A stretch of 64,000 bases of DNA from Haloarcula marismortui ATCC 43049 (GTDB taxonomy: Archaea > Halobacteriota > Halobacteria > Halobacteriales > Haloarculaceae): NCBI RefSeq assembly GCF_000011085.1, contig NC_006396.1, positions 2,232,001 through 2,296,000 of the forward strand. The letters run 5' to 3'. The translations under genes and the position numbers were made by a program. Below are positions 3,888 to 26,864 of this stretch, in pieces; positions within the stretch are counted from its first letter, which is position 1; each line of letters begins with the position of its first letter. The notes under the pieces are model-generated. The model saw only the letters and a list, made by a program, of their open reading frames with translations. It was not told where the DNA came from and made no database searches.

Positions 3888-5366
3888 TCACCCGAACAGC
3901 GAGCGAGCGCGACTGCGCCACAGCGTTGCCGCCCGGACGGCGACGAGTCGAGCCGATGTGGACACGGCAACGAGGAAGCCGCCGAAACCGACGAGACACG
4001 TCACGGCGGCCACGCTGGCAACGACAATCGGGGAGAGGCCGGCACGCGAAAGCCCCGCAACGGCGCCGGTCGTGAGTACAAACGAGACGCCGAGGCCGAC
4101 GGTGAGGGCTGTTGCTACCTTGGGTTCGATCGGAATCCGTCCAAAGACAGACCGGGAGTAGTAAAGGACGTACCCGAAGATGACTAAATTCATCACGGCG
4201 TATCCGGCGGCCCCGGCGACGGCTCCGAACTCCGCACCGAATATCGCTGGGACTGGAACGCTGAACACTAGTCCGTAAAGCTTCGTGCGGAAGCTCACGC
4301 TCGGTTTCCCGACACCCTCGATGGCGTGTGAGGTGAGCGTCCAGAAGCCGCGGAGAATGTTCACGCCCCCGACAAGCAAAACTGTCGCCGAGAAGACGGT
4401 CTCCGAACCGGCGAAGGCGATTCGCGCAACCACATCGTGGGCGGCCAGCAAGTAGCCGAAAACGACGAAAGTGACACCCGTGCCGCCGGTGACCGCGCCG
4501 TCGAGATAGGCGAGGTGCGTGTCGCCAACAGAGGAGTCCCCGCTGACCTTCGTAAGCAGCGGGGAGGAGAGATGCCAGGAAATCGTCGCACCGAAGTCAG
4601 CAAACCGGTCGGCGGCCTCGTAGATACCGACGGCCGCCGGGGTCGCGACGACACCCAGCACGTACACCGGCATGTTGTACGACAGGCGGTCGAAAATCTG
4701 GTCCGGGATGCTCCACTTGGCGAAGTCCCAGGCGCGCTCGACAGCGTGTCGGTCCGGTAGGGTCGGGACGACACCCAGCGCGACAGCGACAGGACCGAGC
4801 ACCGCCAGCCGAACTCCGGCGACGACAAGCAGCAAGTCCACAGCCGTCGCCAGTGTCGGGGCCAGCGCCAGCAGGATGATGAGCTGGATAGCGCTCTGCG
4901 TACTGGTGAGCCATGTCTCCACGCTCGGGTAGCCGATGGCACCGACCAGGCTCGACACAATCATCGACAGCGCGACCGAAACCGCAAACAGGCCGATGGG
5001 GGCGAGCAGCCCCGGCGAAACCACCGTATTTCGGACGATTACGCCGGCCAGTGCGGCCACGATTACACCGACGATGAGGAGATATCCGAGGGCAAACAGC
5101 GCGGCGAGGCCGAGATACGGGCCGACGAGTTCGCCCCGTTCGCTGCCGACCTTCTTCAGCGCCTGGCTGATACCCCGAATCGGACGCAGGACCAGCGAGA
5201 CAGAGAGGGCGATAAAAAAATACGTCCCGGTCGCTGCAGGCGACGTGACGAACGCGTAGACGATGCCGCTGAGAACGAACAGCGTCGTTGATACCAGTGC
5301 CCCACTGGTTGTCCGAATCGAGGAATCCAGCAGGTCTATCTCGTCACCGTCGCGCTGTTCGACCAT
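3888..5366 (-). CDS. Oligosaccharide flippase (Wzx-like, MOP superfamily)
   Basis: A 492-residue polytopic membrane protein with about 12-14 predicted helices, resembling the polysaccharide-biosynthesis flippases that turn lipid-linked glycans across the membrane. Hydrophobic segments run through the whole chain, with a loop reading WSIPDQIFDRLSYNMPVYVLG that is typical of halophilic members. A TATA-like box (ccgttttccc on the coding strand, near 5393) lies 27 nt before the ATG and supports MVEQRDGD as the start rather than the open frame further upstream. No glycosyltransferase sits beside it, so its substrate is not indicated by context. Possible roles are S-layer N-glycan or exopolysaccharide export. 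Confidence 0.85.
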   Translation of the reverse strand: MVEQRDGDEIDLLDSSIRTTSGALVSTTLFVLSGIVYAFVTSPAATGTYFFIALSVSLVLRPIRGISQALKKVGSERGELVGPYLGLAALFALGYLLIVGVIVAALAGVIVRNTVVSPGLLAPIGLFAVSVALSMIVSSLVGAIGYPSVETWLTSTQSAIQLIILLALAPTLATAVDLLLVVAGVRLAVLGPVAVALGVVPTLPDRHAVERAWDFAKWSIPDQIFDRLSYNMPVYVLGVVATPAAVGIYEAADRFADFGATISWHLSSPLLTKVSGDSSVGDTHLAYLDGAVTGGTGVTFVVFGYLLAAHDVVARIAFAGSETVFSATVLLVGGVNILRGFWTLTSHAIEGVGKPSVSFRTKLYGLVFSVPVPAIFGAEFGAVAGAAGYAVMNLVIFGYVLYYSRSVFGRIPIEPKVATALTVGLGVSFVLTTGAVAGLSRAGLSPIVVASVAAVTCLVGFGGFLVAVSTSARLVAVRAATLWRSRARSLFG

Positions 5367-23815: not shown

Positions 23816-25024
23816 TCAGGCGATGGGCAAAAAGCGGAACACCAGATACGCCGCGAGCGTCGCAATCGAGGGGACGACGTTCTGGAGGAATATCACTCTG
23901 GCAGTCGTGCCGGGCTCGAACAGGTCCGACGCCGACGGGATGTCCTCGCGCGATTCCTCGCCGATGGGCTCGGTCTCTGCCGGCTTCGGCGTCCCTTTCT
24001 TGCCGCCGACAGTCGGCGCATCCGCGGCGTCCGCGTCGGTGGTCAGCGCACCGACAGACGCGACGGGTGCCTCGCCCTGCACAGTGTCAGAGAGGCTCGT
24101 CGTTCGCGTCGCACGGCCCCACCCGAGCCCGACGATGCTCATCGTGGCGATGATGACGAAGCTCGCTGGGATACCCAGCGCGGAGAGGAAGGTGACGATG
24201 GTCGATGCGACTGCCGCGACGACGATGGCAGCGACCAGCGGGAGGTCGGTCAGGTCGTTGCCGACCGTGTCCATCGTCCGGCGAGCGATGGTGAACGCAC
24301 CGAGGCCGATAGCGCCGCCGCCGAGCAGAATAGCCGGGTACAACTCCAGTGAGCCGTTGCCGACGAGGGGCGCAACAGCGTTGGCGACGTTCGACGCCCC
24401 CGCCGAGAAGCCCATGTAACAGCCGATACCGATGACGACGACGGTCCCGACGAACTCACGTTGTGTCGTATTCTCGCCGAGCCCCGGCCGCGGAATCGAA
24501 CCGGACCGATCGAAATCCAGCAGCGCTCCTTCGCTCTGTGAGACGGCGAACCACTCGACGAGTGTCGGGTAGAAGTACCGCCCGATGACGCCGCTGACCC
24601 AGAAGGCGATAATCGGCGAGACAAGCCACCACGAGACGATTTCGAGCATCAGGGCGGCGTTCAATGTCCCGCGGGCGAGGCCTAGCCCGGCGATAGCGCC
24701 AACGGCCGTCATCGATGTCGACGCCGGAACCCCGACCACGTTCGAGAGGAACAGCGCGACGCCGATGAAAAACAGGACAACGATGCTGATCAGCGGCGAG
24801 AACTGCGTGGCGACGAGGTCACTGCCAAGGCTCTCGACGACGGCCGGCCCGACGATGAGGCCGCCAGCCATCGCGAATATCGTCATCAGGGCTGCCGCCG
24901 AAAGCTTCGAAAGCGTGTTCGACCCGACCGCGGGCCCGAACGCGACACCCGTGGACGACCCCCCGATATTGAAGCCGACGAAGATAGCTACCAGAACACC
25001 GAGGGCAAAGAGAACTTCGACCAT
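23816..25024 (-). CDS. Inorganic phosphate transporter (PiT family)
   Basis: A 402-residue membrane permease of the PiT family, importing phosphate with H+ or Na+. The two inverted signature repeats are visible: GFNIGGSSTGVAFGPAVGS near the N-terminus and GFSAGASNVANAVAPLVG in the second half. About ten to eleven helices are evident, with a cytoplasmic loop (about residues 310-370) rich in acidic residues and Thr. A TATA-like cgttttaac near 25049 lies 25 nt before the ATG. It is followed upstream on the same strand by the heptad-repeat membrane protein, 69 nt away. Confidence 0.92.
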   Translation of the reverse strand: MVEVLFALGVLVAIFVGFNIGGSSTGVAFGPAVGSNTLSKLSAAALMTIFAMAGGLIVGPAVVESLGSDLVATQFSPLISIVVLFFIGVALFLSNVVGVPASTSMTAVGAIAGLGLARGTLNAALMLEIVSWWLVSPIIAFWVSGVIGRYFYPTLVEWFAVSQSEGALLDFDRSGSIPRPGLGENTTQREFVGTVVVIGIGCYMGFSAGASNVANAVAPLVGNGSLELYPAILLGGGAIGLGAFTIARRTMDTVGNDLTDLPLVAAIVVAAVASTIVTFLSALGIPASFVIIATMSIVGLGWGRATRTTSLSDTVQGEAPVASVGALTTDADAADAPTVGGKKGTPKPAETEPIGEESREDIPSASDLFEPGTTARVIFLQNVVPSIATLAAYLVFRFLPIA

Positions 25025-25093
25025 ACAGGTGCCAGTCCCTCACTGGGTTAAAACGTACCGAACAGGTACTCGGACGAGCGGCGACGGCAGCCG

Positions 25094-26014
25094 CTACGGC
25101 GACTGCTCGGCCGAGCCACCGTCGTCGGTGTCGGACTCGCCACCCTCGTCAGCGAGAAGGTCGTCGTCAGCCGGGACGGTCTCCTCGACCTCCGCCGCGG
25201 TCTCCTCGACCTCGTTTGCCGTTTCCTTGGCCGCTTCGACTTCGTCGGTGACGGATTCAGCGGTCTGTTTCGCGTCGCTGGTCTTGTCCTTGACCTCGGT
25301 CGTTTTGTTTTTCACTTCAGTGGTCTTGTCTTTCGCGTCCGTCGCTTTGTCCTTGACTTCAGTCGTCTTGTCTTTGACTTCCGTTGTCTTGTCCTTGACC
25401 TCGGTCGTCTTGTCCTTGACTTCGGTCACCTTCTCGGCAGCGTCATCATCGCCGGTCTCGGTCGCAGTCTGTTCGACTTCGTCGGCCGTCTGCTCGACCT
25501 CTTCGGCTGTCTGTTCGACTTCGTCGACGGTTTCTTCCACTTCGCCCGCAGTCTGTTCCACCTCGTCGGCCGTCTGCTCGACTTCGTCCGCTGTCTGCTC
25601 GACGTCTTCGGCTGCCTCGTCGACCGTTTCAGCGGCGTTTTCGACCTCGTCAGCGGTCGTTTCCAGTTCTTCGGCGGTCGTCTCCAGTTGCTCGGCTGCC
25701 TCTTCGAGTTCAGCGGCCTTGGTAGCGACATCCTCGTTTGTCCGCTCGAGGACGTTTGCAAGGACGAGGAACTGTAGCAGACCAACAACGACGAACGCCG
25801 AAATGGCGATGCTCGCAGCGGTCGCAAGCATTGATTCCGTCCCGGCACCGAGCGGTAGAACACCGAACGCGGCCAGTCCCCAGGCCAGCGCCAGCCCGAC
25901 AGCGACGACCAGCACGGCCTGTTCAAACAGTCGGTACTCGCGCTCGTATCGCCCGAACATGACTGCTTCGAGCCGACGGGCGAGCGGTGTGAGGACGAAT
26001 GTTGCCATAACCAT
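25094..26014 (-). CDS. Membrane-tethered heptad-repeat protein
   Basis: A 306-residue protein of unknown function. The N-terminus has two transmembrane helices (about 30-52 and 60-86) after a short basic lead (MFGRYEREYR). The rest is a long coiled coil in two blocks: an acidic one of about nine heptads like DEVEQTA (about 110-185) and a charge-balanced one of about eight heptads like TTEVKDK (about 195-250), ending in an acidic tail. Repeats are nearly identical at the DNA level, suggesting expansion by slippage. The Lys-rich block recalls LEA-like stress proteins. A TATA-like gcttttacg near 26039 lies 25 nt before the first ATG; a second ATG is two codons in. Confidence 0.7.
   Translation of the reverse strand: MVMATFVLTPLARRLEAVMFGRYEREYRLFEQAVLVVAVGLALAWGLAAFGVLPLGAGTESMLATAASIAISAFVVVGLLQFLVLANVLERTNEDVATKAAELEEAAEQLETTAEELETTADEVENAAETVDEAAEDVEQTADEVEQTADEVEQTAGEVEETVDEVEQTAEEVEQTADEVEQTATETGDDDAAEKVTEVKDKTTEVKDKTTEVKDKTTEVKDKATDAKDKTTEVKNKTTEVKDKTSDAKQTAESVTDEVEAAKETANEVEETAAEVEETVPADDDLLADEGGESDTDDGGSAEQSP
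25271..25440 (-). repeat. 21-bp tandem repeats encoding TTEVKDK heptads
   Basis: About eight consecutive 21-nt units of the form cttgtctttgacttcagtcg encode TTEVKDK with variants ATDAKDK, TTEVKNK and TSDAKQT. Units differ mainly at third positions, so the array is old enough to have drifted but keeps its protein sequence. A second block of 21-nt repeats (about 25450-25640) encodes DEVEQTA. Confidence 0.75.
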
Positions 26015-26123
26015 AGCTGACCTTTCCTATCACAGCGTAAAAGCATGGGGGTACACTGGGTCAGACAGCCGCCGTACGTCTCGGACCGACACGCTTTCGA
26101 CGGCTGCCACCGGACCACCGGCC

Positions 26124-26864
26124 ATGTACCCCGAGTTCGAGGTCGTTCCCGCGGTCGACATGCAGGACGGACAGGTGGTCCAGTTGGTCGGCGGCGAACG
26201 CGGCACCGAGAAAACCTACGGCGACCCGGTCGAGGCCGCACAGCGGTGGGTGGACGCCGGGGCGCGGACGCTCCATCTCGTCGACCTCGACGGCGCGTTC
26301 GAGGGCGAGCGACAGAACGCGGCAGCCATCGACGCCGTCCTCGACGCGGTGGGAGCCGACGTGGACGTGCAACTCGGTGGCGGTATCCGGACCGCCGAGG
26401 ACGCCGTGTCGCTGCTTGACCGCGGGCTGGACCGCGTCATCCTCGGTACAGCGGCCGTCGAGACGCCGGAAATCGTCGGCGAAATCAGCGACGAACACCC
26501 CGGCAGTGTCCTCGTGAGTCTCGACGCGAAGGACGGCGAGGTCGTGGTGTCGGGCTGGACCGAGGGGACCGGTCTGGACCCCGCCGACGCCGCCGGGCGG
26601 TACGCCGACCTCGGGGCAGGTGGCATCCTGTTTACCGACGTGGACGTGGAGGGACAGCTCGACGGGGTGCGAACGGACCCAGTTCGTCGTCTGGTCGATA
26701 GCGTCGACATCCCCGTCATCGCCAGCGGCGGCGTCGCGACCATCAATGACGTGCTGGCGCTCCGGTCAGCGGGGGCCGCCGCCGTCGTCGTCGGCAGCGC
26801 CCTCTACGAGGGACAGTTCACGCTCGATGCGGCGATTGACGCGCTCGGCGAGTCATCGGAATAA
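26124..26864 (+). CDS. hisA: HisA: ProFAR isomerase
   Basis: Catalyses the Amadori rearrangement of ProFAR to PRFAR in histidine synthesis. A 246-residue TIM barrel with the first catalytic Asp in PAVDMQDGQVVQL and the second in LFTDVDVEGQ; phosphate-binding glycines lie in LGGGIRT and ASGGVAT. The ATG giving MYPEFEVVPAVDM is chosen because family homology begins there; the open frame that continues for 1.5 kb upstream runs antisense through the heptad-repeat gene and is not coding. hisA is separate from hisI and hisB in this window. Confidence 0.94.
   Translation: MYPEFEVVPAVDMQDGQVVQLVGGERGTEKTYGDPVEAAQRWVDAGARTLHLVDLDGAFEGERQNAAAIDAVLDAVGADVDVQLGGGIRTAEDAVSLLDRGLDRVILGTAAVETPEIVGEISDEHPGSVLVSLDAKDGEVVVSGWTEGTGLDPADAAGRYADLGAGGILFTDVDVEGQLDGVRTDPVRRLVDSVDIPVIASGGVATINDVLALRSAGAAAVVVGSALYEGQFTLDAAIDALGESSE

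Follow-up and report, generated by a model that had tools for sequence, protein, structure and literature searches.

The coiled-coil hairpins of chemoreceptors (MCP/Htr) fall into length classes that arise by symmetric seven-residue insertions or deletions, according to the portion of a paper that treats them (PMC5907407, citing Alexander and Zhulin). Matched heptad changes are thus already known in these receptors, and there the signalling function makes their cause harder to explain. FacZ, a protein of the FacZ/YtxG (DUF948) type, combines one membrane helix with a cytoplasmic coiled coil and a disordered tail; the predicted reach of the coil into the cytoplasm is about 15 nm, and three to four protomers are predicted to assemble, as set out in the part of the report that deals with its architecture (PMC10914604). 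A literature search on haloarchaeal transmembrane heptad-repeat coiled coils found no relevant paper. Here we describe a gene of Haloarcula marismortui ATCC 43049 whose product we take, with a probability of roughly 0.65, to be a membrane-anchored antiparallel hairpin, likely cytoplasmic, which probably assembles into a dimer or larger bundle and acts as a rigid spacer or scaffold rather than a signalling receptor.

The window, a stretch of 64,000 nucleotides (NC_006396.1, positions 2,232,001 to 2,296,000), carries this gene on the minus strand at 25094-26014. The open reading frame, supported by orthologues, encodes 306 amino acids, or 304 from the second ATG at 26008, which is a possible start; residues are numbered here by the 304-amino-acid form. 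Hydropathy gives two hydrophobic segments (residues 27-56 and 57-90), in agreement with the initial annotation, which had proposed a membrane protein with two helices. The first helix lies at about residues 30-52 (25853-25921) and the second at about residues 59-87 (25748-25834); AlphaFold2 (AF2) places low-confidence helices at 7-47 and 55-86. The two heptad blocks of that proposal are likewise present, one acidic (TADEVEQ) and one lysine-rich (TEVKDKT), both built from seven-residue (21-bp) units. The acidic heptads belong to arm 1 of the predicted hairpin (AF2 helix, residues 91-185, 25454-25738), in which Tandem Repeats Finder detected a 21-bp array at 25467-25614. The predicted turn occupies residues 185-188 around Gly186 (25445-25456), with the motif TGDDDAA and a break in the AF2 helix at 186-187. 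Arm 2 (AF2 helix, residues 188-277, 25178-25447; 21-bp array at 25281-25427) consists of the lysine-rich heptads, at about 25280-25426, followed by a conserved membrane-proximal segment, SDAKQTAESV...VEETAAE. The acidic C-terminal tail (residues 278-304, 25097-25177) is predicted to be unstructured, with pLDDT below 50 for residues 281-303. Arm 1 has a net charge of -34 over 83 residues and contains no Lys or Arg; arm 2 has a net charge of -7 over 82 residues, with 17 Lys/Arg. Among the matches listed, close relatives of the protein, 92-94% identical, come from Haloarcula argentinensis, H. sebkhae, and H. japonica.

Compared with itself, the protein has an identity of 0.53 when shifted by 7 residues (lag 7) and of 0.50 when shifted by 14; all other shifts of up to 13 residues give 0.08-0.13. 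The repeats also carry a record of their age. Within single genomes (14 genomes), the units agree at codon positions 1, 2, and 3 to 0.94, 0.90, and 0.52 in arm 1, and to 0.92, 0.91, and 0.55 in arm 2, which bears out the earlier remark that drift falls mainly at third positions while the protein sequence is kept. Between the 14 genomes of the 84/81 class (lengths of arms 1 and 2 in residues), units at the same place have third-position identities of 0.71 and 0.70, compared with 0.72 in the membrane region, and first and second positions of the units stay at 0.90-0.97. Third-position agreement within genomes is close to that of shuffled synonymous codons (0.532 vs. 0.548, sd 0.043; 0.564 vs. 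0.531, sd 0.054). Therefore, the units have not been copying over each other, and the repeats in the 14 genomes of this class are old and not homogenised. An actively expanding array was rejected for the 84/81 class, in which the units are orthologous across all 14 genomes and the third positions resemble shuffled synonymous codons. The suggestion that the protein sequence is under selection while the array is free to change length holds in its first part, since the sequence is kept, but not in its second, since the array is static within this class.

A family-level search gave matches in 50 of 146 genomes and a search of the wider order in 39 of 342, several of them in each case to the coil only; a scan of genome contigs for the protein found at least six loci. 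The member set used below comprises 40 sequences: 36 genomes of the family contributed full orthologues, and four members come from another family of the order (f7). Remnants in G031 and G032 and a fragment in G244 were excluded from the counts, and G063, with arms of about 40 and 34 residues by eye, also stands outside the 40-member counts. A hydrophobic N-terminal part is present in all 23 aligned members, so homologues keep the membrane portion. A hydropathy scan of nine members gave two segments in seven of them, one long merged segment in G059, and three overlapping segments in G366.

The turn glycine served as the shared boundary of the two measured lengths: arm 1 was taken to start at a conserved motif at the onset of the coil, and arm 2 to stop at a conserved motif close to the end. 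This strict measurement took 27 of the 40 members, the other 13 being without the turn motif or the end motif. Repeat number varies within the genus: arm 1/arm 2 lengths were 84/81 in 14 genomes, 77/74 in five, 49/46 in five, and 70/67, 42/39, and 84/46 in one each. Arm 1 exceeds arm 2 by exactly three residues in 26 of the 27 genomes, and all steps are multiples of seven. When arm 2 was permuted among the 27 genomes, exact matches averaged 9.9 and reached a maximum of 20 in 100,000 trials. Many of these genomes are close relatives. The arm lengths were also read on a tree for which the N-terminal part of the hairpin protein was combined with five flanking genes. Parsimony without G015 gave eight changes in arm 1, eight in arm 2, and eight jointly (nine, nine, and nine with G015), a count that is approximate because several nodes are poorly supported (below 70). 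On the collapsed tree, a rough guide with polytomies resolved in file order, the counts were nine, eight, and nine. Independent contrasts over all 27 genomes gave r = 0.83, and none of 10,000 permutations was as high. The sister pair G024 (84/81) and G021 (49/46), joined with a support of 100, represents a matched five-heptad change on its own. The initial annotation had described the blocks as two separate modules; the prediction instead makes them paired arms of a single hairpin, and they change length together. A reading of the blocks as independent was rejected on this joint change. The sole strictly measured genome with unmatched arms is G015 (locus L022), in which arm 2 falls five heptads short of the length expected from the rule; this may reflect an assembly collapse or a real exception.

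Wider anchors allowed 37 of the 40 members to be measured; the turns of eleven distant members were named by eye, and ten of these were measured (not G374). With these anchors, the arms differ by 4-12 residues in 36 of the 37 members over an arm range of 33 to 100, the exception being G015 (44). Arms are near-equal in the ten more distant members too. For the last three members, with boundaries set by eye, the differences are 3, 3, and 10 residues. In 38 of 40 members, a Gly or Pro is found at a relative position of 0.52-0.57 along the coil; the exceptions are G015 (0.64) and G079 (none there).

Two odd heptads, one with Val in arm 1 and one with Ala in arm 2, served as internal markers that were picked after the sequences were seen. 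Among the 84/81 genomes other than G034, 12 of 13 have the markers at distances of 25 and 36 residues from the turn; G037 is without the arm-2 marker, and one additional marker occurs in each of G025 and G024. The markers are found at 18 and 29 in G010, G019, and G033 (which has one extra marker), i.e., seven residues nearer the turn in both arms. The same shift in both arms separates G028 (32/29) from G034 (39/36). Therefore, where both markers are comparable, one heptad is missing on the turn side of both arms. G022 and G027 (77/74) have no arm-2 marker, and their arm-1 marker stays at 39, so their loss in arm 1 lies elsewhere.

For the long form, AF2 (seven sequences; best of five models, mean pLDDT 71.0, others 63.7-67.5; pTM 0.47) predicted the two helices 91-185 and 188-277 with the turn at Gly186. 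Mean pLDDT of 10-residue blocks was 64-96 in arm 1 and reached 91-96 around the turn. For the short form from H. pellucida, it predicted helices at 93-152 and 155-217, with block means of 76-87 over residues 101-210 and no residue at 90 or above. Both forms have a membrane part predicted with low confidence (pLDDT about 50 in the long form), and long heptad repeats may bias AF2 toward hairpin models. The period, hydrophobic segments, matched arm lengths, and predicted hairpin were all obtained by computation, which gives good support to the prediction of an antiparallel coiled-coil hairpin that is anchored in the membrane and has matched arms.

The initial annotation had also raised the idea of an LEA-like stress protectant. 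Such a protein would be mostly unfolded, its repeats would be compositional, and the arm lengths would match by shared descent alone. The repeats are indeed of low complexity and highly charged, and 9 of the 40 members have weak matches to YtxH (best E 0.001). LEA group 3 proteins, however, have a repeat period of 11 residues, whereas the period here is 7 (identity 0.53 at lag 7 vs. 0.11 at lag 11). The matched arms indicate a folded hairpin: the roughly eight matched length steps counted by parsimony would not be required of an unfolded protein, and AF2 models the arms as ordered, with pLDDT above 90 in the middle. We therefore consider this protectant role very unlikely.

The predicted hairpin resembles those of chemoreceptors. 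When the model was compared with solved structures, Foldseek placed chemoreceptor domains first (2ch7, 9a65, and 3zx6; 1qu7 at rmsd 4.1), although the top three alignments have rmsd values above 25 and 2ch7 above 30. VIA-align gave Z values of 14.3 for 3g67, 12.7 for 3zx6, and 12.5 for 1qu7, and similar values for unrelated helical proteins (SMC 5xg2, 13.0; 5nnv, 11.7; pore-forming proteins, about 12). In long helical hairpins, values of this kind show a common arrangement, not a relationship. The SMC/Rad50 arms found among these matches (5xg2 and 5nnv) share with the hairpin protein a long antiparallel intramolecular coiled coil, but the latter is membrane-anchored and has no ATPase head or hinge.

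Could the hairpin protein descend from a chemoreceptor that lost its tip, and still enter chemoreceptor arrays as a passive spacer or decoy? Both have the same plan, with two membrane helices, an antiparallel coiled-coil hairpin (here predicted by AF2), and length classes formed by matched heptad indels in both arms, and chemoreceptors lead the structure matches. The window protein has a weak match to the Pfam profile MCPsignal (20.3 bits), and the only other whole-protein match in its own genome, L002, carries the chemoreceptor tip sequence. However, the MCPsignal score is below the cut-off of 34.6 bits. The tip sequence, for which a pattern of the QTNxLALN...IEAARAGE type was used, has no match in the 40 members, and the methylation consensus has none in the window protein. 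Chemoreceptor hairpins are also longer than the arms measured here, and the near-identical heptads of the hairpin protein set it apart from them. The protein follows the matched-heptad rule yet, as judged from its sequence, is not a chemoreceptor, and we regard descent from one with a continuing place in the arrays as improbable.

Among the matches listed, Pfam and NCBIfam gave the window protein sub-threshold coiled-coil matches alone. The best NCBIfam match was SMC_prok_B (2.5e-8; 32.1 bits vs. a cut-off of 567). DUF948 was the most frequent sub-threshold profile, matching 29 of the 40 members at E of 0.01 or less (best 1.1e-7), and the best DUF948 match across eight searched genomes was the hairpin protein of G059 (profile positions 1-86). 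These matches could point to a FacZ/YtxG-like anchor that organises cell division or the envelope, and FacZ itself is a membrane-anchored cytoplasmic coiled coil. Nevertheless, the cut-off of 37.2 bits was never reached, either in the eight genomes (0/8) or by the window protein (19.6 bits), L035 (30.1 bits), L086, or L117, and DUF948 also matches numerous other coiled coils within those eight genomes. FacZ has a single membrane helix and a predicted assembly of three to four protomers, and no return arm is described in the part of the report on its architecture (PMC10914604), whereas the window protein has two hydrophobic segments. A FacZ-like role thus appears unlikely. The alanine zipper profile (Lpp/OprI; Pfam cut-off 23.1 bits) was not reached by the window protein (21.2 bits) but was passed by L035 (29.9 bits), a match that we took as compositional. 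Designed single-chain antiparallel coiled coils (sc-apCC) are also heptad hairpins and gave weak sequence matches (8a3k, 2.4e-4; 8qae, 1.5e-3); they differ from the hairpin protein in being synthetic and soluble.

The membrane-anchored scaffold is our preferred reading. Ahead of the first hydrophobic segment, the window protein has five Lys+Arg and three Asp+Glu residues. This excess suggests that the N-terminus is cytoplasmic and, given two helices, that the hairpin is too. The corresponding counts in other members are 2 vs. 3 (G021), 3 vs. 3 (G026), 3 vs. 5 (G008), and 3 vs. 6 (G366); because these show no Lys/Arg excess, we infer the side of the membrane, as we do the topology as a whole, the cytoplasmic location, the oligomer, and the scaffold role. 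In the proposed arrangement, the two N-terminal helices would cross the membrane, and both protein ends would most likely lie in the cytoplasm. Arm 1, acidic and with an Ala/Val core, would extend from the membrane and turn at the Gly-Asp motif; arm 2, with its lysine-rich heptads and then the conserved segment, would return alongside it, and the short disordered acidic tail would end near the membrane. Matched heptad changes alone would be seen because packing in register ties the residues of one arm to those of the other, such that a heptad gained or lost in one arm would be kept only with an equal change in the other. Overall length could thereby drift with the fold kept; at 0.15 nm per residue, arms of 42 to 84 residues would measure about 6 to 13 nm. 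The whole, probably assembled into a dimer or larger bundle like a chemoreceptor stalk, would provide the membrane with a rigid spacer or scaffold and would have no role as a signalling receptor. Of the earlier idea of a membrane-tethered scaffold or ruler, the scaffold is compatible with these data and favoured, whereas the difference in length between sister species speaks against a fixed ruler.

More tentatively, these proteins may form a non-chemoreceptor haloarchaeal family of membrane-anchored hairpins that obeys the matched-heptad rule to the residue while length is free to differ between sister species. If so, selection would act on the matching of the arms and not on their length. A fixed ruler would then be less likely than a generic scaffold that is lateral or bundle-forming and that may co-assemble with chemoreceptors. 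Here the matched-heptad rule occurs in a simple repeat protein that has no signalling tip, has near-identical heptads, and differs in length between related species. It offers a natural experiment on how paired coiled-coil arms hold register and on whether changes in one arm are purged. Adjacent repeat blocks of opposite charge can form one folding unit, which is easily missed when repeats are counted block by block.

The genomic neighbourhood bears on whether the protein serves a transporter. A PiT-family permease gene (PHO4; Pfam 1.1e-39) lies downstream of the hairpin gene on the same strand, at 23816-25024 and 69 bp away, and a divergent gene that is a conserved neighbour across relatives lies on the plus strand at 26124-26864; we take the latter to be hisA-like by sequence recognition, not from a family search. 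The order PiT, hairpin gene, hisA occurs in 31 of 36 loci. In G034 and G026, PiT and the hairpin gene are present with no hisA within the stretch, and in G063, the hairpin gene lies between PiT and hisA by coordinates. An accessory subunit of the neighbouring permease might be expected from this usual arrangement. However, the association is not constant. PiT and hisA abut without a hairpin gene, about 90-180 bp apart, in seven genomes picked as examples and not as a full count (G080, G077, G074, G143, G060 of genus g7, G094, and G083). Neither gene was found in the stretches around the hairpin gene in G011 and G023, and no PiT was found around it in any of the four members from f7. Where both occur, PiT and the hairpin gene are not always adjacent, as in G028, which has a second PiT-like gene in between. 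Moreover, G031 and G032 have PiT, but between it and hisA just a piece of the second membrane helix remains (L040, about 3951-4110; L041, about 3892-4187), which is gene decay at an otherwise conserved place. With the gene found elsewhere, decayed, or absent in relatives, it is therefore movable and dispensable and is unlikely to be dedicated to the permease. We consider a permease-specific role doubtful and the accessory subunit improbable. The link to a phosphate permease proposed in the initial annotation stands as far as adjacency in the window and the usual gene order are concerned; its constancy does not, and the substrate of the permease may be phosphate or sulfate.

Several further observations concern these loci. 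The hairpin proteins at L118-L120 (f7) are very short (172-174 amino acids), and no PiT or hisA lies in their stretches; therefore, the family is wider than the PiT locus. The permease at 23816-25024 also matches an NCBIfam sulfate permease profile (2.8e-42; 144.9 bits, cut-off 400). The tandem PiT-like genes of G028 (C3:120405-122818) are 92% and 62% identical to the permease in the window. Matches to hisA were found in G062, G064, G077, G089, G091, G093, G072, and other genomes, several of them with one in-frame stop, perhaps from an alignment that runs beyond the true end of the gene. Finally, an open frame of 759 amino acids on the plus strand (24585-26864) covers the entire hairpin gene in antisense and continues, in frame, through to the hisA-like gene; we took it as probably mechanical.
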